A stretch of 64,000 bases of DNA from Podochytrium sp. JEL0797 (Eukaryota > Chytridiomycota > Chytridiomycetes > Chytridiales > Chytriomycetaceae). The notes beneath the pieces were generated by a model. The model saw only the letters and a program-made list of their open reading frames with translations, was not told where the DNA came from and did no database searches. The stretch spans positions 33,641 through 97,640 of the forward strand of contig JADGJG010000016.1 of the NCBI GenBank assembly GCA_027596195.1, read 5' to 3'. The first letter of the stretch is position 1; every line of letters begins with the position of its first letter. This document shows, piece by piece, positions 1,030-51,116 of this stretch. Made by a program: the position numbers and the translations under genes.

Positions 1030-1701
1030 TCATTTCATTTTGCACGTTCGCTCATGCGTCGTCACATGACACGATTGTGAGCTTCGATATTCGCAATACT
1101 TGCAGCCATAGGGCTTCACTCCCGTGTGAGTACTCATATGCACTCGGAGGGAGCTTGCCACTGTGCAAGAATATTCACACTCGGAGCATTGGAATGGTTT
1201 CGCTCCCGCGTGAGTACGCATGTGCCTGAGAAGATGACTAGACTCCTTGCAAGCGAATTCGCACTCGGAGCATTTGAATGGCTTCTCTCCTGTGTGTATC
1301 CGCCTGTGGGTTCGGAGGTGGTTCGATTGCCGACACGAATATTCGCATTGGTCACACTTGAACGGCTTTTCGCCACTGTGAATGCGCTTGTGGATTTTGA
1401 GGACTGACGGGGCTGCACACGCGTATTCGCATTGGTCGCATTTGTGGGGTTTCTCGCCCGAGTGCATTCGTTGATGTCTTTTCATGTTTCCACGGTCAAT
1501 GGTCGAGTAGGAGCAGTCGAAGCATGTGAAGAGAGGTGCGGCAGTGGCAGGAGCCTCAAAGGGCACTGGAGGAGAAGTTGCGGGGTCGCCGGGTTCGATT
1601 TTTGCCGCAATGGCATCGCCGTGACAGGCAAGAGGGGATCCCGATGGAGTGCCCAGGGTAGGATCCAAGTGAGGCGACGAACGAAGCATGGCCTGAGGCA
1701 T
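1030..1701 (-). CDS. C2H2 zinc-finger protein, family A, six fingers, truncated N-terminus
   Basis: Encodes about 223 aa from the first in-frame ATG at 1701. An N-terminal linker contains the KIEP motif shared by family A, followed by six consecutive C2H2 fingers joined by (S/T)GEKP-type linkers. The last finger ends HxxxxC (C2HC) before a basic KMK tail. A role as a nuclear DNA- or RNA-binding protein is expected from the family. Its closest relative in the window is the gene at 27149-27904. Alignment shows that this copy has lost the ancestral start codon: 1835-1837 reads GTA where the other has ATG, and stops follow. The frame stays open upstream to about 1764 without an ATG, so an alternative start or upstream exon is possible. 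Confidence 0.7.
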   Translation of the reverse strand: MPQAMLRSSPHLDPTLGTPSGSPLACHGDAIAAKIEPGDPATSPPVPFEAPATAAPLFTCFDCSYSTIDRGNMKRHQRMHSGEKPHKCDQCEYACAAPSVLKIHKRIHSGEKPFKCDQCEYSCRQSNHLRTHRRIHTGEKPFKCSECEFACKESSHLLRHMRTHAGAKPFQCSECEYSCTVASSLRVHMSTHTGVKPYGCKYCEYRSSQSCHVTTHERTCKMK

Positions 1702-2218
1702 GGCGAGAGGCGAGGGCAGGGAGATCACGGCCTTGGGAGATTTCGATGAAATTTTTCGGCTCAAGCGTCTGTTATTAAAAAATGAATAGGTTCCCTCCGC
1801 TCAGGTTTTACACAAAGAAATGAGAGCTGCTGGGTACGCTGACGCGTGAGAACTGTGATGGGGGAAGTATCGCGCGCATTTCGATTTTCGGAGCAATCAA
1901 GAAAACGCGTATTCCAAAATCGGAATCGAATTCGCGCTTCACACGGATTTCTTGGTCTGATTGGTGTCGTGTTCCTTAATGGACTCTGTCAATTCCAAAG
2001 AACTTTTGATTTGCAAACAAAGTTTATTTTGCATGAGAAACAAAGAGAAACGAATGAATGAGGTCTACTGCGCAAGACTGTACTGATGGATTCAATGCTA
2101 TTTGGTACATACACACAGCATTGCAAAACAAAAGAGAGAAAGAAATAGCAACACGCAGCAGAAACAAAAAATATCCCATAAAGGCAGCAGCCCGCGCAAC
2201 CCAGTTTTCCTCCATGCC

Positions 2219-3445
2219 TCACGTGATCACCAAATCCGACTTGCGTCCCGGCAACAACTCGTCCTTGTACGCGTCGTAGACTCTCTGCAACTCCGCAATG
2301 TACAGCTTCTGGTACTTTTTCAAGTCCTCCTCCGTCGGTTTCTCAATCACGGGCAAATCAATCGGTTTCCCCGTCACCACAATAATCGGCCTGCGATGCG
2401 GCATGATCCCGTAATCATACGTGAAAATGCCGCGGCCGTGGAACAACACGGGACTGAAGGACGCGAAATCTTTGAACATGGTCTGGAACTTGCGCACGGC
2501 GGATCCTTTCGGGTTCGGCACTTGATCCCAAATATCGTTTTCGCCGAACGCAAAGGTGGGGACGAGACTGGCGCCATGCATCAACGCGAGCTTGATGAAT
2601 CCGAGACGCGTTTTGAGAATGAGCTTGTTCGTGTTGGGTTGGGCTTCCATGGCTTCGGCGGCGCCTCCAATCACGAGGGCGAGGGAGCTCCCAGCGGGGC
2701 CAGAGAGGACGCTTTGGATGCTCGTTTTGTCGGCCGACGCAATGTTCATGGCGAGGAGAACGTCGCGGAAGATGGGGATTACGAAGTTGGAGTCGAGGGT
2801 GAGGAGGCGGATGTTGAGGCCTTTGAAGATGGTGCTGATGTTGCAGGCTTCGGTGCCAAAGGCGGTGAAGGCTCCGAGGGAGAGGATTCTGTTGAGGAAT
2901 TTCGAACTTGGGAATAAGCACGCAAATCGCAAGCAGAATAGAATAACAGCTCTTACCCGTGCGGATGATACCCAAACACATATTTCTTGGTTGGATCCAA
3001 ATCAACCGTCTTTCGCAGACTGATTGGGAAAAAGTCCCTGAACCAAATCCACATCGACAGACTGCGCACCCATTGGTTCCGGCGGCCACCAGTCCGGTGA
3101 CCTTTGTCCTGGAGGATCCAGAGGAGGTATACAAGGGCGATGGATCGTGTCTAAACAAGGGTGGTCTAATTAGGGTTTCTGTTGCTCGTGTTGCGAAACT
3201 GCGAAGATAGCAACTCACGACATAGGACTGAAGCAGCATTTCGAGGAAGATGAACAGAGCCAGTGGGACAAGGATCATCCAGAAGGCAACCTGTTTGAAT
3301 CGATTCGAGTGAGACTTCGAATCAAACCAATCTCCCTTGGAAAGTTAAAACTCACAGCTGCTGTTTGCCTTCGTCGTGGGAACGGAACACTGAGCGGTGC
3401 GAACTTGGGCATCGAAGGGAGCGAGGGAATCCGTTTCATGGCCAT
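2219..3445 (-). CDS. DGAT2: DGAT2-family acyltransferase (diacylglycerol O-acyltransferase 2-like)
   Basis: Four exons (3445-3356, 3290-3219, 3150-2957, 2888-2219) give 341 aa, the usual DGAT2 size. Splice joins keep phase throughout. An N-terminal hydrophobic hairpin is encoded by exons 2-3. It is followed by WIWFRDFFPI and the FGYHPHG block holding the HPHG catalytic signature, which is split by intron 3. Further on are IGGAAEA, the FGENDIWDQ block and a C-terminal LYIAELQ helix. Family members transfer acyl groups from acyl-CoA to diacylglycerol (or mono-acylglycerol or wax alcohols) in the ER and lipid droplets. Acceptor specificity cannot be read from sequence. It lies directly upstream of, and on the same strand as, a zinc-finger gene. 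That arrangement recurs in this window. Confidence 0.93.
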
Positions 3446-4114
3446 TGTGGTTTTGGGGATTGTTTGGTTCGTGAGATCTTTTTGGCAATTTTTGGGATCA
3501 AGCCGCAAAAGGAGGGAAGGATTCGAAACAAGCACATGGGGTGGTTGATTGCTTGTCAATCCGTTACGAGCGATTACACAAATTAACGCAATATCTGGGC
3601 TTATTGTGCAAATACAACTGCCGCAGCGCGCAACCGCTTCCCGCAGGCTGAAAACAGACTGGAATCACCTCGACTGGAATGACAGGCGCCCAACGTCTCC
3701 ACTCGATCGGGGGTCTTCAAGTTCGACAGGTGAGAACACGCGAATTCCCACGCGAAGTAATTGTAGAGAATTTCTTGGGCGCGGCAGCGCATTTGTAAAA
3801 GGAGACTGCCAAACATGGTGAAGTATTGAAAGGACGCTTGTGGTCTTATCTCCATCGAATTTCCGATTCCTCAACGACGCGTGTCAGGAAGATACTTCAC
3901 TGAGTTCAAGAAACTGTCTCATCTTTTCCGCTATCGGATTATCTTGAGCAGAGAATTCTAACGCGTAAAAAAATACTGAGTCGAGAATATGTGGATGCTG
4001 GTGCTGTCGCTTGCGTGTTAACACTGCATTAATTTGGCTGGATTCTTTTCAAATCGAAGAATCCCCCGTAAAACCTGAAGTGTCGCCTCAAAAAATCGAA
4101 CTCGAAATTCGCAA
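3446..4114. other. Intergenic region without a recognisable gene
   Basis: Spacer between two divergent genes (DGAT2 start at 3445 on minus, C2H2 start at 4115 on plus), so it should hold both promoters. Two ACGCGT hexamers lie near 3880 and 3960. Short open frames here have no family resemblance. Confidence 0.5.
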
Positions 4115-5067: not shown

Positions 5068-5332
5068 GGCCATCTAAAATAGAGAGCATGTTATATATTT
5101 TGAAGCAATTATGAAGCGTCGCGCGGCACCCTGCAACGAAAAAGCTGGTTTCAATAGCCGCGATTTCACGTGAAAACTGAAGAATAGTTGGTGACCGTTT
5201 CGACCTTCAATGGAAACGGTTGTCTCTTGGACTTTTTATGAGGGGGACTCGAGGTGGGCTCGAGGGGACACCGGGGAGCCAGGGGGGGAAGGAGCAATGC
5301 CAGCCCAACTTAATGCTCAAACAAATATTCTT

Positions 5333-5937
5333 TTACTTGGCAACTGCATGCCACCGTTCATGCGTCTTAAAGCTTGACGGATCTGAAAAAGCGAAACCAC
5401 AAAAGCTGCATTGATATGGTTTCTCTCCGGTATGGATCCGCCTGTGTTTCTTCAAGTTCGATGAGGTCGAGCACGAGTAGTCGCAGGAACTGCAATTGCA
5501 CGGTTTCTCGCCAGTATGGACCCTTTCGTGGTTCTTCAAATTATGCTGGTGCGCACGTGCAAAATCGCAAAAGCAGCATTGGTATGGTTTCTCGCCGGTA
5601 TGGATCCTCTCGTGACTAGTAATCGCAGAAGCTGCATTTGAAGGTTTTTCGTCGGTGAGGATCCTCTGGTTACGCTTCAAGCTTGACGAATCCGAACGAC
5701 GAATTCGCAGAAGGATGGAAATGGCTTTGCGAAATCGCAGAAGGTGGTATGAGTCCTCTCTTGCCTTTCCAAGTCCTCGTCCTTCATGACAGGGTGTTGG
5801 CAGAAACGGCACGCGGATGGTGGGACGAGTAGAGCTGGTGCCACATCTGGTTGTACATCGAGGAACAAATCAATGCCAGCAACGTCGAAGCATTCTTGCA
5901 GTGATTGGCTGGCAGCAAAGTAGTCGATTGTGTCCAT
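5333..5937 (-). pseudogene. Broken C2H2 zinc-finger gene, family B
   Basis: The ATG at 5937 starts the family-B N-terminal signature (MDTIDYFAASQSLQECFDVAG), followed by one CxxC finger. The frame shifts near 5700. The next finger has also lost its cysteines through a small indel (NAASAIT in place of CSFCDY). The last three fingers (to 5333) are intact and end in the family-B tail HERWHAVAK. At least one uncorrected frameshift makes this a pseudogene, unless a cryptic intron removes the damaged segment. No convincing splice pair was found. Relatives lie at 9710-10188 and 49926-50273. Confidence 0.75.
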
Positions 5938-6322
5938 TCGGTTTGGTTGTTTCTTACTTTCTATTATAGGCAACCGGTGGGAATCTCGGACTCGCTCGGT
6001 CTCTCGCTATGAGGAGGCGAAGTCAAGTTAGAGTATTTGCAACCGCATGACGCTGTTCCTCTTCAAGCTTGACGGATGCGAATTAGCGTTTTTGAATGCA
6101 ACTTCACCGACCCGGTCACCCGATTTCTCCTACCCCCGAGGATTCTTCAAGAGCCAGCTCAAATTATAAGACGTGCCAGGCACCTCATAAATCGAACAAT
6201 AAAGAAAAGAAAGAGTTTTTATAGCCGATGAAGTCAAGGAGGGGAAACGGGAAAAGAGGCCCAAGTGTGTACCAAGCAAAAAGTTCCCCGCCGAATCTGA
6301 TATCGCAATCCGCAACCTCAAC
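5938..6322. other. Intergenic region, nothing recognised
   Basis: Spacer between the start of a minus-strand finger pseudogene and a plus-strand P450 gene. It presumably carries the P450 promoter. No clear TATA element or coding resemblance was seen. Confidence 0.4.
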
Positions 6323-8514: not shown

Positions 8515-9534
8515 ATGAAATCGCTTGAGCTCGCAGCCATCTCGCTGTGGCTCCTGCTGCCTTTTCTGTCATTGGGCTTTCTGGTCTTTATGCTCTGGGC
8601 ATCGCTGTTGGTGAGTGCTCATGCGTTGTGAATTGCACTGCTTGGTGCTTAACCAACAACATCGCCCCAACCAAACACCCCCTATCACCAGACTCGCACG
8701 ATTACTCTCATCTACATGGCCTATTGCTTTCTCAACAACTCCCACGAAACTGGCGGCCGCAGATCTCCCTTCCTCCGCAACCTCCCGCACCACAAATACA
8801 TTGCGTCGTATTTCCCGCTGTCTCTCCACACAACCGCCATTATTCCCAAATCCAAGAAACCATACATCTTTGGATACCACCCGCACGGTGTCATGGGCCT
8901 CGGTGCCGTCCTCACGTTTGGATCCAACGCTCTCCAAATCGATCAGATTCTCGAAGGCGTCGAAATCTGCCCGGCCACACTCGACGCGAATTTCTACGTT
9001 CCCGTGCTTAAGGATATGCTGCTGAGTCAAGGATTCATTAGTGCGAGTAAAAAGAGTCTGTTTGCCGCGTTGGGACAGGGCAAGAGTGTGATGCTGGCAG
9101 TTGGGGGAGCCCAAGAAGCCATCTTTGCGAAACCGGGAGTGAATCATTTGGTTCTCAAGGATCGCAAGGGGTTTGTCAAGATTGCGCTTCAAACGGGTGC
9201 CAATTTGGTTCCCGTGTTTGCGTTTGGCGAAAATGATATCTGGGATCAAGTCGACAACAGTGAAGGTAGAATCGTGCGCGCGTTTCAGTTGGGTGTCAAG
9301 AGGTGGACCAAAGTGTCGCCCGTGTTGTTTTATGGAAGGTTCGGGCCCGTGCCGTATCGGAGGCCCGTGAAAGTCGTGGTTGGGGCGCCCATTGAGGTTC
9401 CCAAGGTGGAGAATCCTAGTTTGGAGGTGGTTTCGGAGTATCATGTGTTGTATTTGAAGGAGTTGGAAAAGCTGTATCAGCAGCATAAGCAAGAGTTTTT
9501 GCCGCATCGGGTGTCGGAGTTGGTGATTGCGTGA
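8515..9534 (+). CDS. DGAT2: DGAT2-family acyltransferase, second paralogue
   Basis: Two exons (8515-8610 and 8692-9534, phase 0) encode 312 aa. The single intron splits the N-terminal hydrophobic hairpin (LLLPFLSLGFLVFMLWASLL | TRTITLIYMAY). Family blocks follow: FGYHPHGVMGLGA with the HPHG signature, VGGAQEA, FAFGENDIWDQ and PYRRPVKVVVGAPI. It has two fewer introns than the paralogue at 2219-3445 and is clearly diverged from it. The degraded DGAT2 fragments elsewhere resemble this copy most where they can be compared, so it is a likely parent of the dispersed relics. It is followed on the same strand by a family-B zinc-finger pseudogene 175 bp away. Confidence 0.92.
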
Positions 9535-9709: not shown

Positions 9710-10188
<479 letters not shown>

Positions 10189-13381: not shown

Positions 13382-13548
13382 TTGTTTGCGGCGAAAAAAG
13401 GGTTCGAATAATAATGATTGGAATTGCACGTGGAAAATCATCAATTAACCATATACTGCTACTTACCGTTGCTTCTTATAACTCAACGCCTTATTCACCA
13501 GCACTCGTTCCTCAAACGCTTCCTCTCTCAAATGCAACCACCTCACCC

Positions 13549-13720
13549 ACACGCGCGAGAAACACTCCAATGCCTCGAATGCGACTTGTTAACGGCGTAT
13601 TTATGCGACATCATGTATCGCGTGCAGGCATATGGGGGAGATGCGGTACAAATGCAACCGATGGCGTATCCGAACGCGTTCACATGAGAACGGGATGCAT
13701 TCAGAGGAGGGTGTGGTGGA
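13549..13720 (+). pseudogene. Zinc-finger relic
   Basis: Two frames preserve CLEC, then GEMRYKCNRWRIRTRSHENG, which reads like a decayed linker plus finger (GEKPYKCxxCxxxTRSH). Frames are shifted relative to each other and no complete finger remains. It lies immediately upstream of a DGAT2 fragment on the same strand, as at three other sites. Confidence 0.4.
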
Positions 13721-13727
13721 TTAATTG

Positions 13728-14021
13728 GCTGCTGGTGGGAAACCAGACGTTGAATATTAGTTATTCCTCTGATATCCCGTGTTTTGCGCTTGGCGAAAAC
13801 GATATGTGGGACCAAATCGGGAACAACGAAGGTGGAATCGTGCGCGCGTTGAACGTCCAAATTTTCTCCCGTACGTTGTTGTTTTTGGAAAGATTGGACC
13901 CGCGCGCTAATTAAGGTTCCCAAGGTTGAGAATCCGAGTTTGCAAGAAGCTGCGGGGTATCATGTGTTATGCGAGGGAATTGGAAAAGAATGAATGATGT
14001 TCTGAGTTGGTGATGGCATGA
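13728..14021 (+). pseudogene. DGAT2 C-terminal fragment
   Basis: Recognisable blocks follow the order of the DGAT2 gene at 8515-9534: LLVGNQT (VGGAQEA), FALGENDMWDQIGNNEGGIVRA, then after a stop KVPKVENPSLQE, and finally the terminal ELVMA followed by TGA at 14019-14021 in a third frame. Frames change at least twice and the HPHG half is absent. It cannot be functional. Confidence 0.85.
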
Positions 14022-14426
14022 ATAAAGTGTTCACAGCGAATGGCTCCCTGATTGGAAAACTATCCGTCCCTCTTTTTAAAATGTCGCCGATTCATGAGGC
14101 TTGTATAATATTTAGAGTGCGCAAAGTCGGACTCAATGAAACTACGGTCCATCGACGATAACCAACACGTCATTTTGCGCGGAGGTCCTCCAGCACCACC
14201 TGATGGCCTCGCAAGACTGTAACAAGCCTCCTAGCTGTGGCGCTGTGACACCGCTGCGCGTATAAACGTATTTTTAAAGATTTTTCTTTCCTGTCGAAGT
14301 CTCTGGGAGAATTCATCGAAATAATTGAATGGAATACTTCTGCCGCCCGAGGGGTCAAGTGTGGTTCGCAATCGTTGTCGGTTTGAACCCTTCCATGAAA
14401 AAGAAACAACGAAACAGAATGGATTG
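14022..14426. other. Intergenic, nothing recognised
   Basis: Separates a DGAT2 relic from a short finger-gene relic. No gene-like signal was seen; probably degraded duplicate sequence. Confidence 0.35.
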
Positions 14427-14523
14427 ATTCTACAGCTTACTTCGATGACCGCCAATCCCTGCAAGAATGCTGCGACGTTGTTGGCATTTCGCTTCCGTTA
14501 AATGGAAAGAAGATTAACTTGTA
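14427..14523 (+). pseudogene. Relic of family-B zinc-finger N-terminal domain
   Basis: A short frame reads IDSTAYFDDRQSLQECCDVVG and stops soon after. It matches the N-terminal signature of the family-B finger genes (TIDYFAASQSLQECFDVAG at 5937 and DTFAADQSLQKHCDIAG at 9710). No fingers follow. It is a truncated duplicate of only the 5' end of the coding region. Confidence 0.7.
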
Positions 14524-16948: not shown

Positions 16949-17058
16949 GATGTGGAGTCAGAAAATCAAACTACAAAGCAGGGGGAATGAACTCTTTTTT
17001 TGGCTGTGTTAGTAAATAATAAAAAATATATGGACGCCACTCAAAATGTATATAAATA
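16949..17058 (+). promoter_or_regulatory. Permease 1 promoter: conserved block and TATA box
   Basis: A block at 16949-16973 (GATGTGG, one variable base, then GTCAGAAAATCAAAC) is shared almost exactly with 19263-19287 upstream of permease 2, although the surrounding spacers have diverged. A second shared block GACGCCACTCA is followed by TATATAAATAG at about 17049-17058, 40-45 nt before the ATG. Preservation against a diverged background suggests transcription-factor sites, possibly for nitrogen or amino-acid control. The factor is unknown. Confidence 0.65.
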
Positions 17059-17094
17059 GTGCAGCACCTTCCCAGAAAGAGACTCAAACCCATT

Positions 17095-19434: not shown

Positions 19435-19467
19435 CCGCCCCCTCCCACAATAAGACTCAAACCCATC

Positions 19468-22035: not shown

Positions 22036-22152
22036 TATTTTTTGTTGTAAAAATCGAAATCAACTTTATTGGAATGTGTTTCTATGTTTGACAGGTTTGG
22101 ACGCGACGTGGCTATTTTTTTAATGGAGGTGGTCCAAGGATACTTTGCGCTT

Positions 22153-33214: not shown

Positions 33215-33746
33215 TTGGATGATTGATTGCTGAAAATGGGAATAGAAGAGAAGGGCGTGCTCTTATAGCAAACCCAGTGGCTTTCGCTTGGCTTCTCCGT
33301 CACGCGCAAATCCACGTGCGCTGGTGCCACTCGAACTCAACAATCGTTTTCAAGCCGTGCAGCTAGGGTGCAGATGAAACTCAAACAGAAATGCTGCACT
33401 TTCCATATCTTCCCGAAACTATCCCACACCCCTTAATCACGGCAATGGCATCGTGTTGTGGCCGGCAAGGAACGCAATGCTTGCACTTTGAGTGACCAAG
33501 CTTTCGAAATCCAAATGCATCACGTTGGAGATCACAAGGAGCTTTCTGGCCAAGCACGTGGCAAGCGAGATGGATCCGTCCAAGCGCCGTGGAGGTGGAT
33601 GTTTACACCGTCACGCGAGCGAATCGGGACTTCCTCACCTCTCCTAAACCCATGGAACGTAACAAAACAAAGAATTCTTTTTGACATAGTTTTTATTTGG
33701 AGCATGAAAACCCCTTAACGCAAAAGATATACAAAGGGGAGCACAT
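33215..33746. other. Intergenic region between chitinase 2 and GAPDH
   Basis: Contains the chitinase 2 promoter and the 3' end of GAPDH. No gene-like frame was seen. Confidence 0.4.
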
Positions 33747-38763: not shown

Positions 38764-38805
38764 ACTTGTCATGTGACCGGGACAGCCACCCTTTCCGGTA
38801 TAAAG
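38764..38805 (+). promoter_or_regulatory. Chitinase 3 proximal promoter element and TATA box
   Basis: TGACTTGTCATGTG, then CGGGACAGCCACC, then GGTATAAAG lie 40-80 nt upstream of the ATG. The same ordered words (TGACATGTCATGTG, CGGAATAGCCAC, GGTATAAAT) occur upstream of chitinase 4 at 44848-44894 on the minus strand. Both promoters also share CCCCTCAAC just before the start. The CATGTG core resembles an E-box. Co-regulation of the pair is inferred. Confidence 0.65.
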
Positions 38806-38842
38806 TCCAACGGCTTTCCCTCGATCCCCCTCAACACTCAAC

Positions 38843-41207
38843 ATGAAAGTCCTCCTGATCACCACCCTCGCTTCCACGGCTCTCGCACAGAGCTGCTCCT
38901 TTGGAGCATACCAGTGCTCTGGATCCACGACTCTGCAGCAGTGTTCGTACGGAACTGGAAACGTGCTCTCTTGGGCGAATGTCCAGACCTGTTCCACTGG
39001 CACCGTGTGTTCCACTTCTGGATACATTGGCTGTGTTGCCGGATCTGCGCCAGCGACCACGGCGGGACCCGCACCGGCCACCACCGCCACTTCCGCAGCG
39101 GCAAAGCCAACCACCACCGCAGCAGCACCTGTCACCACAGCACCAGCACCCGCGACCACCGCCGCTGCCTCCGCTGGCTCTGGAACCCCATGCGCTGCAC
39201 CTTTCGTCTCGGGAACCGCGTACAACGGAGGTGCCCAGGTCTCCTTCAACAATGTCAACTACGTTGCTAAGGTGGGTTTTAATCCATGTGAATTATCCGA
39301 TTCTATTCGTTAACGCGTTTTCGTAGTGGTGGGAATCCGGCACTGTGACTCCCGACCAGGCTGGTGACGGCGGATGGTCCTCCCAAGGCGCGTGTGGCTC
39401 TGCTCCCGCCAAGACCAGTGCCACTACTACCCCCGTTGTCGCGACCACTGCGACCACTGCTGCCGTGGTCCCCACAACTTCCGCTGCAGTAGTCCCCACC
39501 ACCGCTGCTGCCACTTCAGCTGCTGCCACCACCGCTGCCATTAAAACCTCCCCCGCTGTCACAAGTGCTGCCCCAGCCACTTCTGCCACCACTGCCGCCG
39601 CGCCAGCCACTACCACGGCCGCGGCAACCACCGGTCCTGCCTGTTACCCCAACTACACTGCCACTCCTTTTGCTGGAATTACCTACAAGAGTGGCGACCA
39701 GGTCTCCTACAACGGACAGAACTGGGTCGTGACCTACCAAGGCGCTGCTGGACCTCCCAACGCCGGAGCTGGAACCGGATGGACTCTTCAGGGACCTTGC
39801 TCCGGAAACGGATTCACTTTCCGTCCATTCACAACTCCTGGTGTGATTGGATACTGGACTCAATGGTCGCCGTACAGCAGAAAGCAGAACAGCATTGACC
39901 AAATCGATCTTTCTGGATTCACCGGAATCAACTACGCTTTTGGTAAGTCTTGGGATGGGTGATTTCTCTGCTGCATTCGTTTTCTTACCCCGATCATTTC
40001 ACCCAATAGTTAACGTCGATGCCACTGGAACCCTCCAAACGTTTGACTCGAACGCGGACCTGAACTGGATGAGAACCTTCACTGCCCAGCGTGTCAAGTA
40101 CCCGAACTTGAAGGCCATTGTTTCGATCGGTGGTTGGTCTGGATCCCAGCACTTCTCGACCGTTGCTGCTTCGGCTTCGTTGACGCAGGCGTTCGTCAAG
40201 AACGTGCACACCTTTTTGGACACCATGGGTTTCGACGGTGTGGATCTTGATGTGAGTTTGATTCTCCTTTCCTCCGCGCTTTTCAAAATATCATACTCAT
40301 CCGTCTCTTCCAGTGGGAATACCCAGGCGGCAGCGGAATCTCTTGCAACGCCGTCTCCACCTCCGATGCCGCCAACCTTGTGAACCTCGTCTCTGCTCTC
40401 CGCACCGAGCTCGGACCCACGCGTTCCATCTCCCTCGCTGTCTCTGCCGAAACCTCCCACTACGCTGACCCCGCCACCGGCGTCAGCTACATCCCGCAAA
40501 TCATGAAATACGTCAACTACGCGCAACTCATGTCGTACGACTTCTACGGATCCTGGGACGCTTACTCGGACTTCAACTCCCCCTTGAACGCGCCTGGACC
40601 ATCGGACCCGCAGCAACCTTCCCAAAACAACGTGGGATACCCCGTCCCACTCTCTCAAGCTGCCGCCGTTGCTCTTTGGACGAAAGCCGGCGCCTTGCCC
40701 TCCCAACTCACCAACGGACTCGCCTTCTACGGCCGCTCATGGAGCGTCCCATCCACCACGAACAACGGTCTCTACCAGCTCTGCCAAGGATCCACGCAAG
40801 ACCCCAAGACTGGCCTCTACTCTGCTTGCACGGGACCCGTGGGTGACTTCCTCGACATTACCCAATGGTGTGACCCTTGCAAGACGTGTTACAACTCTGG
40901 AGTGTGGATGTACTTGAACATGCGTGGTGCTGCTGGACAGCAGAGCCCGCCTCTCCCGTCCTCCGCAACCGCTGCTGGGAACGGATGGACGCGTCAGTAC
41001 TTTGACTTTGCGCAGTCCCCTACCGTGCAGACTGCCAGCAACTACCGTGGAGTGCCCAGTTTCATCTCATACGATGACCCCGTGTCGATTAAGGCCAAGG
41101 CTGCGTGGGCCAAGAGCTCTGGGTTGGGTGGAACCATGATTTGGGAGTTGAGTCAGGATTATAATGCTGAGTTGGTGACTGCTGTTCGTGCTGGATGGGG
41201 TGCGTGA
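38843..41207 (+). CDS. GH18 chitinase 3 with CBM19-like and two CBM5/12 modules
   Basis: Four exons (38843-39271, 39327-39942, 40010-40251, 40314-41207) give 726 aa, the largest of the four. Signal peptide (to ALAQ), then CBM19-like Cys-rich module, then a Thr/Pro/Ala-rich linker. A first CBM5/12 (CAAPFVSGTAYNGG...VAK|WWESGT, split by intron 1) is followed by a second long Thr/Ala-rich linker and a second CBM5/12 (CYPNYTATPF...LQGPC). The GH18 domain carries SIGGWSGSQHF, DGVDLD|WEYP and MSYDFYGSWD. The linkers are likely O-glycosylated. It is expected to be secreted and to bind crystalline chitin through several modules. It forms an inverted pair with chitinase 4, with about 150 bp of identical sequence in exon 1. 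Confidence 0.94.
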
Positions 41208-41320
41208 AGGAGAGGAAGGGTGAATAGAGTGCTTTCGTTTGATATAAATAATAAATTGCTTTTTGTATAACGCGTGTGCGGAGATGAGCCGTTAGTCGGC
41301 AGGGGCTTTCTCGAGTTAAA

Positions 41321-41460
41321 GCCTGCAAAATCAACACCGTTTTCAAAGGTCTCAACATACGCCTTCTCACTCACAAATTCATCAAACTCACACGGAACCA
41401 ACCTAATCCCACAAGGTTCGCGCTTGGCGAAAACGATAAAAAGGATACGCGGTGCACAAG
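41321..41460 (+). pseudogene. DGAT2 internal fragment in frame with a zinc finger
   Basis: Reads ACKINTVFKGLNIRLLT (DGAT2 gene 1 has ACNISTIFKGLNIRLLT), then after an internal deletion RFALGENDKKD (FAFGENDIWDQ). The same frame stays open to 41635 and passes directly into a family-A finger (RFNCPYLTH...MTRHQRTHSDEKPFEC). About half of the DGAT2 domain is missing, so it is not an enzyme. No ATG opens the frame. Confidence 0.75.
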
Positions 41461-41514
41461 TTTCAAGACCAATGGGCTAACCATTTTTGACGGGTTCTCT
41501 AATGCGAGGCTCGC

Positions 41515-42069
41515 TTCTCGTTTCAACTGCCCCTATTTGACACATTACCGGCGTGACATGACCAGGCATCAACGAACTCACTCGGACGAGAAACCATTCG
41601 AATGTGAGCGAGTATGCATGCGCGGAGGCTTTTAAACTCAAACTCCGCATGCACATTCACAGTGGGGAGAAACCATTCAAATGCCCCGAGTGTGAATAAA
41701 ATTGCAGGGCCTCGAGTACCCTCAAAGTCCATATGCGTGCTCACTCGGGAAAGTTGCCGTACAAATGCACGGGGTGTAAATATGCGAGCAAGCAATCGGG
41801 TAACCTCAAATTGCACATACTGGGAGAGAGAATTGAGTGTGAATATGCATGCAGGGGCTCGGGTGGCCTGGAAACACACGAGAGAGGAACCGTTCAAATG
41901 CTCCGAATGTGATAAGTGCAGCGGAATCAAGTGCCATCAGAAGACGCATGCGGAAGCACATGGGAGAGAAGCCATATGCTTGCAAGCATTGCGAATATCG
42001 AACCGCCAAAACTTTGCATTTACAAAGGCATGAGAAAGTATGCAAACAGAAAAAAGAACAAACAAATTG
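41515..42069 (+). pseudogene. Broken C2H2 zinc-finger gene, family A
   Basis: Begins with the family-A first finger (RFNCPYLTHYRRDMTRHQRTH), then frames change several times. HSGEKPFKCPECE is followed by a stop, then TLKVHMRAHSGKLPYKC, an internally deleted finger, EPFKCSECDKCSG, and finally KPYACKHCEYRTAKTLHLQRHEKVC with a basic end. The terminal finger with HxxxxC matches the intact family-A genes. Multiple lesions make this a pseudogene. Confidence 0.85.
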
Positions 42070-42512
42070 AACATTTGAGGAGATTGTTACAAAGCTGTAT
42101 ACGCCTGATGAAAATTGCTGAAGTTTGGAAAGTTCACGGCATAAATATTACTGCAGCTTAAAAATCCAGAAACCATCAGAATGCAGAAACGGAGGTTGAG
42201 CGGCGCAAGAACTCTTCAATTCCCTAATGCTGCAACATTTGAAACACCATCACCCGACGCGCGAAGAATCGATAGCGTCTCTCTCCGGAAATTCTTCACG
42301 TAAATACATTCTCCGAACCTCAAACGTGTCGTGTGAAAATCCAAAGGCAGTGGGCGGCCGCGGGGGGGGGTCCCAACTTCGGATCGAAAGGAAACACCGA
42401 ACCCAATACCCACGTTCTCTCTCCATCACGAGCAATCACGTATATTCATTTTATTTTCTAAAAATCTTATCATTTCACCTTCCATACCAAATTAATATCT
42501 ACGTTCCCCAAT
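42070..42512. other. Intergenic spacer in the centre of the inverted chitinase pair
   Basis: Lies between a finger pseudogene and the 3' end of chitinase 4. An 8-G run occurs at about 42362. No gene was seen. Confidence 0.4.
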
Positions 42513-44817
42513 TCACGCATTCCACCCGGCATTAACAGCCGTAACCATCTCCCCATTAAAGTCCTGACTCAACTCCCAAATCATAGTTCCACCCAGACCC
42601 AACTTCTTGGCCCAAGCCGCCTTCGCCTTGATCGACACGGGGTCATCGTACGAGATAAAGCTTGGCACTCCACGGTAGTTGCTGGTCGTGTGCACGGTCG
42701 GAGATTCAGCAAAGTCATAGTACTTTCTCGTCCATCCGTTTCCAGCGACAGTCGGGGACGAGCCAGGGAGCGGCGCATTCGTTTGTCCAGCGGCTCCACG
42801 CATGTTGTGGTACATCCACACACCCGAGTTGTAACACGTCTTGCAAGGGTCACACCACTCGGTGATGTCGAGGAAATCACCCACGGGTCCCTTACACGAT
42901 GAGTAGAGTCCCGTTTTGGGGTCAAGCGTGGATCCTTGGCAGAGTTCGTACAACCCGTTGTTTTTGGTGGATGGAACCGTCCAAGAGCGTCCGTAGAAAC
43001 CGAGGCCGTTCGTGAGTTGGGAGGGCTTGGCACCCGCTTTGAGCCAGAGATCAACGGCGGACGCTTGAGAGAGCGCAACGGGGTATCCGTTGTTGTTTTG
43101 CGCGGGCTGTTGTGGGTCCAACGGGCCAGGGGAGTTCAAGGGGGAGTTGAAGTCCGCGAAGGCGTTCCAAGCGCCGTAGAAGTCGTAGGACATGATTTGG
43201 ACGTAGTCGAGGTATTTCATGTATTCTGGGATGTAGCTGACTTTAGTGACTGGGTCGGCGTAGAAGGAGGTGAGCGCGCTGGAGGCGATCGAGATGGAAC
43301 GCGTGGGACCGAGCTCAGTGCGGAGGGCAGCGAGCATTTTGACGAGGTTGGCGGCGTCGGAGGGGGAGACGGCATTGCAAGAGACGCCGCCGCCGCTTGG
43401 GTATTCCCACTGAATGAAGTGGTTAGAAAAAAGAGCAATGGGTTGCAAATCAAATTCAACTTACATCAAGATCCGCACCGTCGAAACCCATGGTGTCCAA
43501 AAAAGTGTGCACGTTCTTGGCAAACGTCTGCGTCAAAGAAGCCGAAGCAGCGACGGTAGAGAAGTGTTGGGATCCAGACCAACCACCGATCGAAACAATG
43601 GCCTTCAAGTTCGGGTATTTGAGGCGCTGGGCCGTGAAGGTTCTCATCCAGTTCAGGTCCGCGTTGTCGTCAAACGTGCGGAGGGTTCCAGTGGCGTCGA
43701 GATTGACTATTAGAAAATTATTGGGGTCAGAAAAACTAAACGGAAAAGAAATTACAGATCCCATGACGTACCAAACGCGTAATTGATGGCAGTGAATCCA
43801 CTGAGGTCAATCTTGTCAATACTGTTCTGCTTCCTGCTGTATGGCGACCATTGTGCCCAGTATCCAATCACTCCCGGGGTCGTGAATGGACGGAAAGTGA
43901 ATCCGTTGCCAGAGCAAGGTCCCTGAAGAGTCCATCCGGTTCCAGATCCGGCGTTGGGAGGTCCACGAGCACCTTGGTATGCGACGACCCAGTTTTGCCC
44001 GTTGTAGGAGACCAGGTCACCGCCGTTGTATGGGATATTGGCGAAGGGGGTGGCGGTCCAGTTGGGGTAGCAGGCGGGGCCGGTAGTAGCAGCAGCAGTG
44101 GTGGTGGCTGGAGCCGCAGCTGAGGTGGGGACCACGACAGCGGTGGTGGGGACTACACCAGCGGAGGTAGGGACCACGGCAGTGGTGCTGGGAACCACGG
44201 CAGCAGTGGTCGCGACAACGGGGGCAGTAGTGGCACTGGTCTTGGCGGGAGCAGAGCCACAGGCACCTTGGGAGGACCAGCCGCCATCACCGGCCTGGTC
44301 GGGAGTCACGGTTCCGGATTGCCACCACTGGAAAGAAAACGCGTCAACGAATTGAATTGGATAATTCAAAAAGAGAATGAAGACCCACCTTGGCAACATA
44401 GTTGACTCCGTTGAAGGAGACCTGGGCACCTCCGCTGTACGATGTTCCCGAGACGAAAGGTGCGGCACATGGGGCTCCAGAGCCAGAGGAGGCAGCGGCG
44501 GTGGTAGCGGGTGCTGGTGCTGTGGTGACAGGTGCTGCTGCGGTGGTGGTTGGCTTTGCCGCTGCGGAAGTGGCGGTGGTGGCCGGTGCGGGTCCCGCCG
44601 TGGTCGCTGGCGCAGATCCGGCAACACAGCCAATGTATCCAGAAGTGGAACACACGGTACCAGTAGAACACGTCAATGCGGTCGTCCAGGCGAGGACGTT
44701 TCCAGGGCCATACGCGCACTGTTGCAGAGTAGTGGATCCAGAGCACTGGTATGCTCCAAAGGAGCAGCTCTGTGCAAGAGCGGTGGTGGCCAGAGTGGTA
44801 ATCAGGAGGAATTTCAT
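42513..44817 (-). CDS. GH18 chitinase 4 with CBM19-like and two CBM5/12 modules
   Basis: Four exons (44817-44389, 44327-43772, 43706-43465, 43409-42513) give 707 aa. The architecture is as in chitinase 3: signal peptide, CBM19-like module, linker, split CBM5/12, a second Thr/Val/Pro linker (shorter than in chitinase 3), CBM5/12 and GH18 with DGADLD|WEYP. The catalytic motif has Ala where the other three have Val (DGADLD), which leaves the acid/base Glu and Asp residues intact. Exon 1 has exactly the same length (429 nt) as in chitinase 3, and about 150 bp are identical. It is expected to be secreted and chitinolytic. Transcribed towards chitinase 3. Confidence 0.94.
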
Positions 44818-44847
44818 GTTGAGGGGGAACGATGGAAACTGAGTGCA

Positions 44848-44894
44848 ATTTATACCAAGCCTGTGGCTATTCCGAACCACATGACATGTCAGGA
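44848..44894 (-). promoter_or_regulatory. Chitinase 4 proximal promoter element and TATA box
   Basis: Minus-strand words TGACATGTCATGTG, CGGAATAGCCAC and GGTATAAAT stand in the same order as upstream of chitinase 3 (38764-38805), while surrounding sequence has diverged. A second copy of the TGACATATCGTGTGACCG and GCCACCCTTCGCG words lies farther upstream (about 44945-44980), suggesting a duplicated site. Confidence 0.6.
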
Positions 44895-44980
44895 GGAAGC
44901 TTTCCGTTTCATCTTTTTGTATCAATGAATTTGAACTTTTAGCGCGAAGGGTGGCGGTTTCGGTCACACGATATGTCAGG

Positions 44981-45715
44981 TGGAAGAATTTCTGACTTTT
45001 GTATCAAAGGATTTGATCCTGAAGCTATTTTAAAGCTTGGTTGAACTGTGGTATCAAACTCATAGCCGAGACCCTTGGCCAACCCTTGGCTGGCGTTCCA
45101 TCTGAAATTCAATTTCGAACATTGCGAGAGGATTTTTTGTTGCCAGCCTTAAATCTGTGAGTAGGGTGGTAGTAGTAGTGATGGCGAATGGTGGTGATGG
45201 TGTGAGTTGTTGGGGGTGGGTTGGAGAAGGGGAGCGATGTGGACTGCTGGCTGAAGGTGCTTTGTTTGAGGTGTTGCTGAATTCTGAAGGCTGGAACGCT
45301 CAATTCATTGCAAAACTCTTTCAAATATCAACCACTTCTCTCCCACTTCTCGCCCGTTGGCTTTTATCCTTGTGCTGGAGGGGAGGCAAACATGAATATA
45401 TTCCACCGCACTAGCAATCGCACAGCGTGACCCGCAAGCTTAAACTAGCTATTTTACAAAAAGGTATCTATTTGCAAAAAAAGCATGCTCAAATAGAAGC
45501 AAACAGCGCGTGTCCGTTGACCGGGAAGTTATGAGCTTGCGCCAGATTGGGCGGTCGATTGTTGCAATTCAAGCGTACTTCTTTCCAACATATATTCACA
45601 ATGAAACCCTCAATCTTCCCACCACCCACCTCTTCTTTCCGTAACGATTACGGATCGCGTTGACTTGGTTTTTTTTTTTTTTTTTTGCCGCTGTCAAAAA
45701 CCACTTCGATTCCAA
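44981..45715. other. Intergenic region between chitinase 4 and DBP7
   Basis: Nothing coding was recognised. A 17-T run lies at about 45669-45686, close to the DBP7 start. Confidence 0.4.
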
Positions 45716-46919
45716 ATGGGCGACGAACTCCAAATGAACTTTGCGGTTCCGACGACCGGTGGAGCAGCGTCGATTGCGCTGCCCAACGTGAAGGGCAGCT
45801 GGAAGAAGAAGCGCATTGTGACCAAGATTGCGAAACACAAGGCAACAAAGTTTGGTTCTTCGTCCAAAGAGACCCAACCCACGGTCTCCAAAGACTCCTC
45901 CGCTGATCCTCCGCCTGCGAAGCCAATCGTCAAAGTCATCAATCCAACCAACCGAACCACCTTCTCCACTCCCAAACCGCAACACGCACCTGTCAAACCC
46001 AAATCCGCCTATGTCACCTCGTTATTCTCGGGAAACCCTTCCATCGACGAAATCGCGTCAGCAACTCCTTCTGAACCCATCCCAGACGTCAAACAAACCT
46101 CCAACGCGCTGCAAACGACGCAGCAACTCACCGACACGACCACCTTCAAGGGACTCGGTCTCCATCCCTTGTTGATCCAGCATTTGGAGTCCAAATTGAA
46201 CGTCACGGTGCCCACACGCATTCAGCAGGCGACTCTTGCAGCTCTTGTGTCGCAAGGTTCTCACAAGGATTGCATGGTTCAGGCGCAGACGGGAAGTGGA
46301 AAGACGTTGGCGTACTTGTTGCCGATTGTGCACAAGTTGATTGAAGCCGAAACTGCGATGGCGAAGGAGGGTGATAAGGTGAGATCGGCATATGAATATT
46401 TCAGATGTGATTTCGCGTTACTAAAAACAAAACACCCAGGCCGCCCTCAACCGAACCCTCGGAACCCTCGCAATCGTGCTGGCACCCACACGCGAACTGG
46501 CCAAACAAATCAACACAGTGCTCGAACAACTCCTGATGTATTCCAAAACCGCGTCCATGGCCGCTTCCAATGCCACCGACGATTCCGCCGCCACGACAAC
46601 TGTCGCAAGTCTCGAAGACGACTCGGACGCCAAAGATACCACCACCCCCAAATCGTCCCGCAAACACTGGATCGTGCCCGGTCTCGTGGTTGGTGGAGAC
46701 AAGAAGAAATCCGAGAAGGCGCGTTTGCGGAAAGGTTGCACGATCCTAGTCAGCACGCCGGGCCGTTTGATTGATCACTTGAAAACTACGCAGTCGTTTG
46801 AATTGGGAAATTTGAGGTGGCTCGTGTTGGATGAGGCGGATCGGTTCTTGGAGCTTGGGTTTGAGGGTGCGTCTGGTCGCCTTGTTGTTGTCGTTACTAT
46901 GGGGGGGGGGGGGGGGGGG

Positions 46920-46961
<42 letters not shown>

Positions 46962-48763
46962 GGGGTGGGGTTGTTGTTTTGTTTCCGCCCCCACCCCCCC
47001 CCCCCCCCCCAATTCCAGAAACTCTTCGCGAACTGTTGCACATCATTGACCAAAAACGCACTGCCTGCATGGCCGCCAACAAACGCCTCTCAACACCCGC
47101 TTGCTGGCCCACTCACAAACAAATCCTCCTCACCTCGGCAACCATCAAAGGCAACGTTGCGCGGCTCGCGGAAACATCTCTCAAGAACCCGTTGTTCATC
47201 AAAGCAGCAGCCGAGGAGGAAGCCGTGAAGGAGACAGAAGTGGACGGTGGATTCGAGATGGCCAAGAAGGCGTCGAAGGGACGCGATTTTATCGTCAAGA
47301 AGGAGGAGGTGGTTGAGAGCGACGAGGAGGACGGGGATGACGATTTTTGGAACGAGCAGGACAAGATTCAGCGTCGCAAGCAGCGTGAGGAGGCAGCGGC
47401 GGCGGAGGAAGCGGCCGAGGACGATGAGGAGGAGCAAGACGAGATGGTGGAAGTCGCGACCACTTCGATTCCCGATTCCGAACACCAAGAACTCTTCACG
47501 GTCCCGCAACAACTCAAACAAACTTACATTCTCGTTCCGGCCAAGCTGCGCCTGGTTACCCTTGTGGCTGTGATTCGACAACTCTGCGCACTTCCGGGGA
47601 CCTTCAAGGCCATTCTGTTCACGGACACGTGCGATTCGGTCGATTTCTTGCACCATGTCCTCGCGAACGGACACCGCGGCCCCACGCGCGACGAAGCTGA
47701 AGACGCTGCCAACAACCCCACCCCCGCCGTCAAAAAGGAAGCGAAACCCGTCAAACCCAAACCAACCCCGAAAAAGACGGACGACCCCACCACCGCTGCA
47801 ACAGAACCCCCCTCAGAACCAACCAACCCCCTTCTCCCCCCCTCCAACGACACCCTCCCTCCCTCCGGCCTCCAATCCCCGCTCTTCCCCGCTTGCAACA
47901 TTTACAAACTTCACGGCAACCTTCCCCAAAAAGTGCGTGACGTGGCTTATAAAGGGTTCCGTGCGCCTCACGCGTCTCTCCTCATTTGCACGGACGTGGC
48001 AGCACGTGGGTTGGATCTTCCGGATGTTTCGTGTGTGATTCAGTATGATATGCCGTCGGATGTGACGGACTATGTGCATCGGATTGGGCGGACTGCAAGG
48101 CTCGGGAGGGAGGGAAGTGCAGTCAGTTTGCTTTTGCCGAGTGAAGTTGGGTATGTGGATTTGCTTGCGAGGAGGGGGGTGGTGGTTGTGCCGCAGGAGG
48201 GGATGAAAGTGTTGAAGAGTTTGGTTGGGGCGCCTGTTGGGGGGGAAGAGAAGGAAGGCAAGAAGGGGAAAGGGAAGGAGAAGAAGAAGGGGTTGGAGGA
48301 TTGGGCGACGGATGTGCAGATGATGTTTGAGCGGTTTGTGGTTGCGGATGAGAGGGTATATTTGGCTTTTTCTGTTCGTGTGATGGTGTGTTTTTTGCTG
48401 ATTGCGTTTTTTTTTCTTGCACAGAATCTCGAACTCGCTCGCAGCGCCTTCCGCTCGCACGTCCGCGCCTACACGACTCACGTCTCCTCTGAAAAGTCCC
48501 TCTTCAACATCAAAAACCTGCACCTCGGCCACGTGGCCAAATCGTTTGCACTCCGCGACGCACCTGGCATGTCGATGGGAGCTGCTGTCGCGAGCGCGAA
48601 TTACGCGCCGAAGGGGAAGGTGGGGAGGAAGGCTGTTGCGCCCAATTTGAAGAAGCGGGCGTATCAGTTGCAGAGTATTGGGGCTTCGGCTTCGGAGTTT
48701 GGGGATGGGGGGGTGCAGAATTTGGTTGGTGGGACGAGGAAGAAGGTACGGGTTTATCATTGA
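45716..48763 (+). CDS. DBP7: DEAD-box RNA helicase DBP7/DDX31-like
   Basis: Four exons (45716-46378, 46440-46866, 47019-48355, 48425-48763) give 921 aa. The basic N-terminus is followed by a Q-motif region ([24 protein letters not shown]) and Walker [34 protein letters not shown] and TSAT come next. An acidic insert precedes the second RecA domain ([20 protein letters not shown]). The end block [17 protein letters not shown] is characteristic of Dbp7. It acts in early assembly of the large ribosomal subunit in the nucleolus. Intron 2 (46867-47018) contains a G homopolymer and a facing C tract. Intron 3 (48356-48424) is 69 nt and would stay in frame if retained, but encodes a hydrophobic insert. 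GTATAT/TGCACAG signals support splicing. Confidence 0.92.
46900..47010. repeat. Poly-G tract and poly-C tract within DBP7 intron 2
   Basis: Twenty G, one C, forty G, then TGGGGTGGGG (46900-46970) are followed about 15-20 nt later by a C-rich run with seventeen consecutive C (46994-47010). The two tracts are complementary and lie just upstream of the splice acceptor. Either a real hypervariable homopolymer or an assembly artefact is possible; length cannot be trusted. Confidence 0.85.
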
Positions 48764-49154: not shown

Positions 49155-49588
49155 CATGGACGTGACGCATCACCAGAAGCCATTACAATGCAATTTATGC
49201 GATTTCGCATGCTAGAAACATTGCAACCGCTTACCAAAGCACTTTTAAGAATCATGAGAGGAAGCATACCGGCGACAATCCTTTCCCGTGCAGCTTCTGC
49301 GATCTCTCTTGCACAAACCATTCTGATTTGAAGGTGCTCGAGAGGACTCATACCGGCGAGAAACCCTTCCATTGCTGCTTCTGCGACTTTGTATGTGCGC
49401 GACAGTCTATTTTGAAGAATCGCGAGATGATCCATACTGGCGAGAAGCCTTTCCAATGTTGTGGTCTCAAGAATCACGAGAAAATCCATACCGGAGAGAA
49501 ACCATTTCAATGCAGCTTTTGTCCTTTCGCTTGTTCCCTGTCGTCAAGCTTGAAGAAACATGAATGGCGCCGCCATGCATATAAATAA
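49155..49588 (+). pseudogene. Broken C2H2 zinc-finger gene, family B
   Basis: Begins KPLQCNLCDFAC followed by a stop. Three fingers follow in a new frame (FPCSFCDLS, FHCCFCDFV, and one in which the middle is deleted: FQCCGLKNHEKIH). The final finger FQCSFCPFACSLSSSLKKHEWRRH ends in AYK. In finger 3 one His has become Arg (KNREMIH). The internal deletion removes the second cysteine and finger core, so the gene is considered broken, although the last 87 codons remain open. Confidence 0.75.
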
Positions 49589-49640
49589 TCAAAATACGCG
49601 CGGGTAAAAAATTACCTAGCTGCTTGCCCTCAACTCAAAC

Positions 49641-49815
49641 AAAGTGACTCCCGCGTTTCTTTATAGAAGGCTTGGACCCTTGCCGTATTGGAGACCTGAG
49701 AATGTCGTGGTTGGGGCGCTGGTTGAGGTTCACACGGTTGAAAATCCGAGTTTGGAAGTGTTTGTGGAGTATCAAGTGTTGCATTCGAAGGAATTGGAAA
49801 ACTTAGTTTCCGCAA
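49641..49815 (+). pseudogene. DGAT2 C-terminal fragment in frame with zinc fingers
   Basis: Reads VTPAFLYRRLGPLPYWRP, ENVVVGALVEV, VENPSLEVFVEYQVL, SKELENL, matching the end of the DGAT2 gene at 8515-9534 (VSPVLFYGRFGPVPYRRP, KVVVGAPIEV, VENPSLEVVSEYHVL, LKELEKL). The frame remains open through a 35-codon bridge into the finger gene at 49926. No ATG precedes it in frame, so translation probably starts later. Confidence 0.85.
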
Positions 49816-49925
49816 CCAGACACGAAACTACTATTTTTCTGGGACCTTCCCCCCCCTCCCTAGTCCAAAACTTGATTGCCCGCCCAAATTTCAAAAAATT
49901 GGCTCCCAGTTGCTGGAGTGCCATC

Positions 49926-50273
49926 ATGACGAAGAAGTTACAATGCAGTTTCTGCGAGTACTCTTGCACACAGTCATCAAGCCTGAAGCGTCACGAGAGG
50001 ATCCATACCGGCGAGAAACCGTTCCAATGCAGATTCTGCGACTCCTGTTTCTCGCAGTTATCGAGCCTGAGGACTCACAAGAGGATCCATACCGCTGAGA
50101 AGTCATTCCAATGCAGCTTCTGCGAGTACACCTGCAAACGAAAAACGAATCTGCCCATTCACGAGAGGATCCATACCGGCGAGAAACCATTCGAATGCGG
50201 CTCTTGTGATTTTTCTTGTTCATATTTGTCGAGCTTGAAGAGGCATGAACGGCGTCATGCAGTTGCTAAATAA
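49926..50273 (+). CDS. C2H2 zinc-finger protein, family B, four fingers
   Basis: An ATG at 49926 opens a 115-aa protein consisting almost only of four C2H2 fingers (LQCSFCEYS, FQCRFCDSC, FQCSFCEYT, FECGSCDFS) with TGEKPF linkers, one degraded to TAEKSF, and the family-B tail HERRHAVAK. The N-terminal FAA...AG domain of the family is absent; its place is taken by the in-frame DGAT2 remnant upstream. All zinc ligands are present. It could be a functional short finger protein or a decaying fragment that has not yet met a stop. Confidence 0.6.
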   Translation: MTKKLQCSFCEYSCTQSSSLKRHERIHTGEKPFQCRFCDSCFSQLSSLRTHKRIHTAEKSFQCSFCEYTCKRKTNLPIHERIHTGEKPFECGSCDFSCSYLSSLKRHERRHAVAK

Positions 50274-50599
50274 ATGAAGATTTCTTTCCAATTTTTCATC
50301 TCCGGACTAAAGCATTGCTTCGCTTGACTTCGAGTCACGCGTGAACTACCCAGAGGATAGAACTGTCAAAATTATGACCTCAACCACAAACCATCCCAAA
50401 TGGATCCCAACTCGGAGGGACAAATTGAACAAACAAAAGGATTCACGCCCGAATGCGAGCATGCGTCTTTTGGGGAACTGGCAAATCGTATTTGTTAGGT
50501 GGCAAAGGCAGGAAAGAACCCCTGGTCGAGACCCTGGCGGGACTTTGGGTTTCGTCCCGCCGGGGTCCGGAAGAAAAGTTTCATCAAAACATCCCTTAA
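50274..50599. other. Intergenic, nothing recognised
   Basis: Flank between two finger loci. One ACGCGT lies at 50338. Confidence 0.35.
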
Positions 50600-51030
50600 G
50601 TAAATACTCTCCCATCTATGCCGCCTCTGTCGGTGTCAAAAATGGATGCCGCCCTCCGGAACGCGTCCGGTGCCCCCCCCCATGTCTCGTAACGATGCAT
50701 GATGCATCCCGTCACGGTGATACCATTGCGCCCAAAATTGAACCAGCCGACCCGGCAGCTTCCTCTTCGGCACATTTCGAAGCTCCTCCAACTACTACAG
50801 CTCGTTTCACATGCTTCTACTACTCATACTCAACATCGGAGCGACAGTTAAGCACAAAAAATTTTCACCCCCGGAAACCAAGGGGTTAACAAATCCCTTG
50901 GGCTAGAAACCATTCAAATGCTCCGAGTGCGAGTACGCGAGCGCGGAGTCATTCAACCTTAAAATTCACATGCGCATTCACACGTGAGAGAAGCCATTCA
51001 AATGCTCCGACTGAAATCGACCTCCATCCG
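50600..51030 (+). pseudogene. Broken C2H2 zinc-finger gene, family A
   Basis: The family linker is clear (DTIAPKIEPADPAASSSAHFEAPP, where the intact gene has DAIAPKIEPADPATSSPVHFEA), followed by RFTCFYYSYSTSERQ. The first CxxC is damaged (CFYY). A stop follows; later fragments give KPFKCSECEYASAESFNLKIHMRIHT with a TGA at the linker. Fingers 2 and 4-5 are gone. It is followed directly by a DGAT2 fragment. Confidence 0.8.
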
Positions 51031-51059
51031 AGTGCACACGTCGAGACACACAAAGGCGG

Positions 51060-51116
51060 GTGACTCCGGCCGTATCGGAGGCCCGTAAAAGTTTTGGTTG
51101 GGGCGCCGATTACGAA
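51060..51116 (+). pseudogene. Short DGAT2 fragment
   Basis: PYRRPVKVLVGAPI is retained from the DGAT2 C-terminal half (PYRRPVKVVVGAPI at about 9350-9395), preceded by the GTGACTCC word also present at the fragment boundary at 49643. Nothing more of the gene is visible. Confidence 0.75.

Follow-up and report, generated by a model that had tools for sequence, protein, structure and literature searches.

Mammalian C2H2 zinc finger gene clusters expand by tandem and block duplication and contain pseudogenes (PMC2443715), partial duplications are found in C2H2/KRAB-ZNF clusters (PMC11952569), and lineage-specific expansions of poly-zinc-finger genes in vertebrates show variable DNA-contact residues (PMC2604467). 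In chytrids, C2H2 factors are reported to be more numerous than those of the Zn-cluster type (PMC5415576). Here we examined a 64,000-bp stretch of DNA from the chytrid Podochytrium sp. JEL0797 (the window), in which C2H2 genes lie beside genes and degenerate scraps of DGAT2. We consider it probable that this is a C2H2 cluster shaped by ongoing local duplication and decay, in which a small array of DGAT2 genes is interspersed and hitchhikes. The locus has local and block duplication, partial duplicates and pseudogenes in common with the mammalian C2H2-ZNF and KRAB-ZNF clusters. Unlike the KRAB-ZNF clusters of mammals, however, it belongs to a chytrid, and a metabolic neighbour, DGAT2, has been duplicated and broken up together with the fingers. 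In a Pfam scan, in which the C2H2 genes covered were those among 18 open reading frames (ORFs), no KRAB domain was found at E values up to 1 in the C2H2 gene beside the DGAT2 gene D1. A partial look at titles and abstract openings yielded no report of such a cluster in a chytrid, and nothing in them pointed to a DGAT2/C2H2 unit. On the reading preferred here, the odd-looking DGAT2/C2H2 pattern is explained without a new mobile element.

The window comprises the last 64,000 bases of the 97,640-bp contig JADGJG010000016.1 (C68:33641-97640; C68 coordinate = window coordinate + 33,640), and the assembly (GCA_027596195.1) consists of 24.4 Mb in 995 contigs. We refer to the DGAT2 genes as D1, D2, U1 and U2, of which U1 and U2 lie just outside the window, and to the DGAT2 scraps as F1 to F4; the C2H2 sequences are divided into subfamily A, which is found on the D1 side and has many members, and subfamily B on the D2 side (Table 1). 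An earlier note on this DNA had placed six DGAT2 genes or fragments in the window, each next to a C2H2 locus in the same orientation. All six (D1, D2 and F1-F4) were confirmed at their places and on their strands, and each has same-strand C2H2 sequence within 0.7 kb; downstream of F1, however, this sequence is a leader only, with no finger.

In local alignments, the full copy nearest to F1, F3 and F4 was D2, and that nearest to F2 was D1. The DNA match to D2 begins at about residue 186 in F1, 212 in F3 and 232 in F4, and a weak tblastn alignment extends F1 back to residue 143, over a stretch that overlaps a finger remnant. All of the D2 scraps lack the 5' part, and deletions and stop codons interrupt the copies. 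The fragments had been described as keeping different parts of the enzyme, which is true of F2 against the rest, whereas F1, F3 and F4 keep overlapping 3' parts of D2. When the neighbouring C2H2 sequences are included, DNA blocks of D2 and its C2H2 gene (C68:42927-43124 and 43488-43828) are collinear with F3 and the finger array B2 (83258-83456 and 83572-83913), which repeat the order, strand and subfamily of D2 and its B gene. Blocks of D2 and the leader of its B gene (C68:42850-43111 and 43367-43426) are also collinear with F1 and its leader (47415-47628 and 48080-48136). F1 repeats the 3' part of D2, the spacer and the B-type leader, while the B fingers are gone, and its 3' flank aligned to the 3' spacer plus leader of D2 with a score of 272, compared with a maximum of 211 in 200 shuffles. 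The earlier note had proposed repeated segmental duplication of a linked DGAT2/C2H2 pair, and these alignments support it for two of the four scraps, as a duplication of D2 with its B gene that is clear at F1 and with which F3 is consistent; the case is weak at F2, and F4 does not fit.

Fingers lie directly upstream of all three D2 scraps, ending about 56 bp (F1), about 30 bp (F3) and about 4 bp (F4) before the scrap begins. At D2 itself, no fingers were detected in the 260 bp upstream of its block (score 94, shuffle maximum 112), and no finger cluster lies upstream of it down to C68:39281. Finger alignments did not exceed shuffle level in three control stretches, nor in the sequence upstream of U1. 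These upstream tests shuffled 2-mers, and the shuffles for the F1 3' flank and for the module edges described below kept base composition only. A junction between a finger array and the 3' part of D2 would be expected if a segment had been duplicated in tandem with its two breakpoints lying within D2 and behind a C2H2 gene. The homology supports that D2 with its 3' spacer and the B-type leader was copied at F1, and it places the 3' end of D2 and B-type fingers, in unchanged order, at F3. Unequal or non-allelic recombination, or else template switching, may have acted on the many similar 84-bp fingers, and a supply of homology by the fingers would fit the finding that F1 and F3 are each flanked by C2H2 sequence on either side. 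DGAT2 would have been copied only because a neighbouring C2H2 gene adjoins it, and no function is implied by the pairing.

We compared the adjacency with random placement and strand against 28 finger clusters, which were found in the 97,640 bp of C68 using a hidden Markov model (HMM) built from 104 local fingers, with the two arrays around F3 counted as one cluster. With the F1 leader counted, six of the eight DGAT2 loci on C68 have same-strand C2H2 sequence within 1 kb (mean 2.0, P 0.003), and with fingers only the number is five of eight (mean 1.8, P 0.019). Leaving out F4, which lies 1.2 kb from F3, gave 5/7 with the leader counted (P 0.013). The six loci in the window alone gave 6/6 (leader counted, P 0.0003). 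Just beyond the window, however, U1 and U2 depart from the strand rule: the C2H2 sequence closest to each is on the other strand, and the closest clusters on their own strand are 5.5 and 6.7 kb away. All of these P values are generous because the DGAT2 copies are related and not independent. On other contigs, no finger cluster was present in the fetched stretches of 10 kb around the DGAT2 locus of C107 and 9 kb around the two DGAT2 loci of C166. Based on these results, the same-strand adjacency of DGAT2 and C2H2 is modestly above random placement, and it is no general rule, failing at U1, U2, C107 and C166.

The pattern could be pure coincidence, with DGAT2 scraps that arose independently of C2H2 sequence on a contig crowded with it. 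Random placement alone already gives the 2.0 of eight same-strand neighbours mentioned above for 28 clusters in 97.6 kb, the strand rule is broken by U1 and U2, and F2 and F4 do not have the sister partners that would be expected. In addition, at 6/8 loci the closest cluster shares the strand of the DGAT2 sequence, against a mean of about 4.0, which is not significant (P 0.14 to 0.16). The earlier note had suggested tabulating DGAT2 distance and strand; on C68, no significant nearest-strand bias was seen, and DGAT2 lies within 1 kb of same-strand C2H2 sequence more often than under random placement (P 0.003 to 0.019, all eight loci). This excess, together with the spacer and leader that F1 shares with D2 and the order and subfamily that F3 shares with it, speaks against coincidence, and we regard this explanation as improbable. 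It is far less probable still that D2 and its B gene are a functional enzyme/regulator pair, held by selection and amplified for dosage. The order of D2 followed by B does recur at F1 and F3, but the extra copies are broken, B-type genes are also found without DGAT2, and the B gene of D2 itself has stops.

The earlier note had also offered a mobile or recombination unit carrying both DGAT2 and C2H2. Such a unit would have defined ends and insert the pair at new sites, and the recurrence of the pair in one relative orientation would agree with it. However, the edges differ in every copy, and the longest direct and inverted matches at seven module edges are within the shuffle range (P 0.15 to 0.97). 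When these edges were aligned for shared boundaries, neither terminal repeats nor target-site duplications stood above shuffle level. No transposase, integrase or reverse transcriptase was found in the 18 distinct ORFs scanned of 245 listed, in which the Pfam matches over the cut-off were DGAT2, C2H2, P450, RSN1 channel and SAM domains. Moreover, the detected scraps are all on one contig, C68, and the stretches fetched from C107 and C166 contained no DGAT2/C2H2 pair. With no shared edges, terminal repeats, target-site duplications or transposon domains where tested, we rejected the mobile unit, to which we give next to no chance.

Another reading places the cause in the finger arrays, which would be recombination hot spots in an animal-like, fast-evolving poly-zinc-finger cluster and would repeatedly duplicate, break and fuse their neighbours, here DGAT2. 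We offer this only tentatively, as it seems rather doubtful to us. With equal reserve, it might cover the three junctions of finger arrays with DGAT2, as well as a single open frame (window 49620-50273) that runs from the DGAT2 remnant F3 into four C2H2 fingers. Since a methionine codon stands shortly before the fingers in the translation, a finger-only product from this frame appears at least as likely as a fused one. If the finger arrays were indeed hot spots, the locus would offer a compact example, in a fungus, of how vertebrate zinc finger clusters are known to duplicate and break up.

Turning back to local duplication and decay with DGAT2 hitchhiking, we need to consider several observations that weigh against it. 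The match of the F1 leader to the unpaired B gene (C68:39512-39595) extends over 88 bp at 80% and is longer than its match to the D2 side (60 bp, 78%), and for B2 at F3 the B gene of D2 and the unpaired B gene (window 5319-5955) tie at 154 bits each. Because the C2H2 partners are only about 61-77% identical, their sister relations are blurred. The array at F2 belongs to the subfamily of D1, yet the array of D1 itself ranks fifth in similarity, and F2 as a clean copy of D1 with its A gene was rejected for this reason. At F4, the partner is an A-type array upstream of the D2 scrap, and not a B-type array downstream. Since these partners are not the expected sisters, co-duplication is not established at F2 and F4. 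There are also no clear fingers upstream of F2 (103 against a shuffle maximum of 102). Fully generic trapping might predict scraps of other genes, and their absence counts in the same direction: no scraps of other single-copy genes were seen beside C2H2 sequence when 293 of 370 stop-to-stop ORFs of at least 100 amino acids, not overlapping the finger clusters, were searched against the contig (E 1e-4). The dN/dS-like ratio of F3 against D2 is 0.43, within the range of intact pairs (0.15-0.51), and because no relaxed constraint is visible here, we base the argument for decay solely on truncation and broken frames. Finally, the recombination mechanism itself is inferred.

Table 1. DGAT2 genes and scraps and C2H2 sequences in and next to the window
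Feature	Window	C68	Strand	Evidence or record
D1, DGAT2 type 1	2222-3180	35862-36820	-	tblastn and Pfam DAGAT
D2, DGAT2 type 2, main open block	8653-9531	42293-43171	+	Pfam DAGAT E 1.1e-82
U1, DGAT2		26941-27882	+	DAGAT over cut-off; protein record P0008
U2, DGAT2		30575-31503	+	DAGAT over cut-off; protein record P0009
F1, scrap of D2 3' part, internal deletion	about 13764-13988		+	tblastn, DNA match
F2, scrap of D1	41318-41383		+	52/65 bases identical to D1
F3, scrap of D2 3' end	49618-49826		+	75% of 199 columns (150/199) to D2
F4, 46-bp scrap of D2, joined to broken A array	51066-51111		+	89%, 42/47 columns to D2
A-type C2H2 gene 3' of D1, leader and 5 or 6 fingers	1030-1800		-	Pfam zf-C2H2/zf-H2C2_2, 5 stretches
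Unpaired B-type C2H2 gene with leader	5319-5955		-	blastn and leader match
B-type C2H2 gene 3' of D2	9710-10188		+	leader 9710-9835, then fingers
Degenerate A-like finger remnant upstream of F1	13525-13708		+	local alignment 218, maximum 123 in 60 shuffles
B-type C2H2 leader without fingers, downstream of F1	14423-14503		+	tblastn 27 aa, 56%
A-type finger array 3' of F2, in-frame stop	41525-42037		+	finger cluster
B-type finger array B1, before F3	49223-49588		+	finger cluster
B-type finger array B2, 3' of F3	49932-50273		+	finger cluster, Pfam scan
A-type C2H2 remnant (leader, broken fingers) upstream of F4	50517-51061		+	DNA match
Further C2H2 arrays	22147-22610, 27164-27565, 52076-53627			

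On C68, DGAT2 is present as four copies with open domain blocks and four scraps. Other contigs carry one DGAT2 locus (C107) and two loci that are split into several pieces and include a stop (C166), besides weak matches on C986 (E 0.02) and C706 (E 0.9). D1, D2, U1, U2 and the C107 gene pass the curated cut-off of DAGAT (PF03982) and fit this family, and the four degenerate scraps in the finger cluster are additional to them. The main blocks of U1, U2 and D1 are mutually about 70% identical, and the C107 gene is 52% identical to D2. In 6/6 pairs of U1, U2, D1 and D2, the nonsynonymous differences per site (pN, 0.16-0.40) are below the synonymous ones (pS, 0.47-0.74), and because of this the four copies appear constrained and look like ordinary enzymes under constraint. 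D1 consists of two open blocks, which suggests one intron, and a protein record for D1 was absent among the 120 matches listed. D2 is annotated (protein record P0001), with the annotated protein beginning in an upstream exon. Among the scraps, the frame of F3 matched DAGAT with an E value of 0.00096 and 18.6 bits, under the cut-off of 22, and the score of the F1 frame is also under the curated cut-off, while Pfam gave no DAGAT match in the frames taken for F2 and F4. A short FALGEND-like stretch was seen by eye near window 41417 at F2.

The D1-side A gene contains a finger cluster at window 1045-1530 with six HMM hits. In a genome-wide search with its protein, 39 of 125 matches, counted by eye, were on C68, and a search with PF00096 had 150 of 428 candidates scored. 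The C2H2-rich contigs C137, C545, C234 and C523 were without a DGAT2 match. Among the best 120 of 4661 matches of the D1-side C2H2 protein, the named ones were mostly from animals and no named chytrid was present, and its A leader (window 1525-1800, minus strand) had no match at E 0.001 among 72 candidates. On C68, subfamily B is represented by five arrays and by three closely related leaders, with weaker leader matches before the arrays at window 52076-53627. The B gene beside D2 appears degenerate, with a stop in a finger and leader pieces in two frames. Beside the unpaired B gene, tblastn detected no DGAT2 scrap. A genome-wide search with the B leader returned four rows, namely the query itself, the two D2-side leader pieces and a weak match at C68:13253-13474 (E 0.32); the F1 leader is too weak for this search and was recovered by tblastn. 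Outside the window, C68:18341-18428 is an orphan A-type leader with no fingers nearby, which resembles the orphan B leader at F1.

We then examined the variability of 71 fingers of C68, chosen by pattern with the reading frame of each not checked. The highest entropies were at helix positions -1, 2, 6 and 3 (3.66, 3.51, 3.36 and 3.28 bits, respectively), followed by 3.16 bits at the next position. As in the vertebrate poly-zinc-finger expansions (PMC2604467), positions -1, 2, 3 and 6 are the most variable ones. Among the 44 finger pairs that share at least 70% identity, pN/pS was 0.93 at the contact positions and 0.42 elsewhere, and over all 1275 pairs the values were 0.90 and 0.60, with a pS of 0.75, at which synonymous sites are near saturation. 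With more constraint outside the contact positions, this pattern resembles the one described for vertebrate poly-zinc-finger genes (PMC2604467), although the ratio of 0.93 at the contact positions is not above 1.

Other families on the contig also have whole-gene local duplicates, namely a permease (two copies), a chitinase (four) and an alcohol dehydrogenase (two), all named by reading the sequence. The amino-acid-permease-like genes form a tandem pair (window 17021-19042 and 19394-21420) with 85% identity over 2 kb. The four chitinase-like copies, 75-80% identical, stand in two groups, partly inverted (28720-33262 and 38804-45003). The alcohol-dehydrogenase-like genes are an inverted pair (56751-57832 and 62554-63523) with 86-93% identical DNA, and the second copy appears to be split over several frames.

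In this fragmented assembly, the opening 1.34 kb of C68 (C68:1-1344) match the beginning of C137, taken in reverse complement, at 97.9% identity, and C137 and C545 have a 3.4-kb stretch in common at 99.3% identity. These near-identical stretches make allelic or overlapping contigs likely, and they suggest that C68, C137 and C545 belong to one larger C2H2 locus, as its split alleles or as contigs that overlap. No tRNAs were reported by a scan with the bacterial-code setting. Long G-rich or poly-G runs at window 46901-46970, inside a helicase-like gene region, and at 63945-64000, the very end of the contig, look like sequencing or assembly artefacts.

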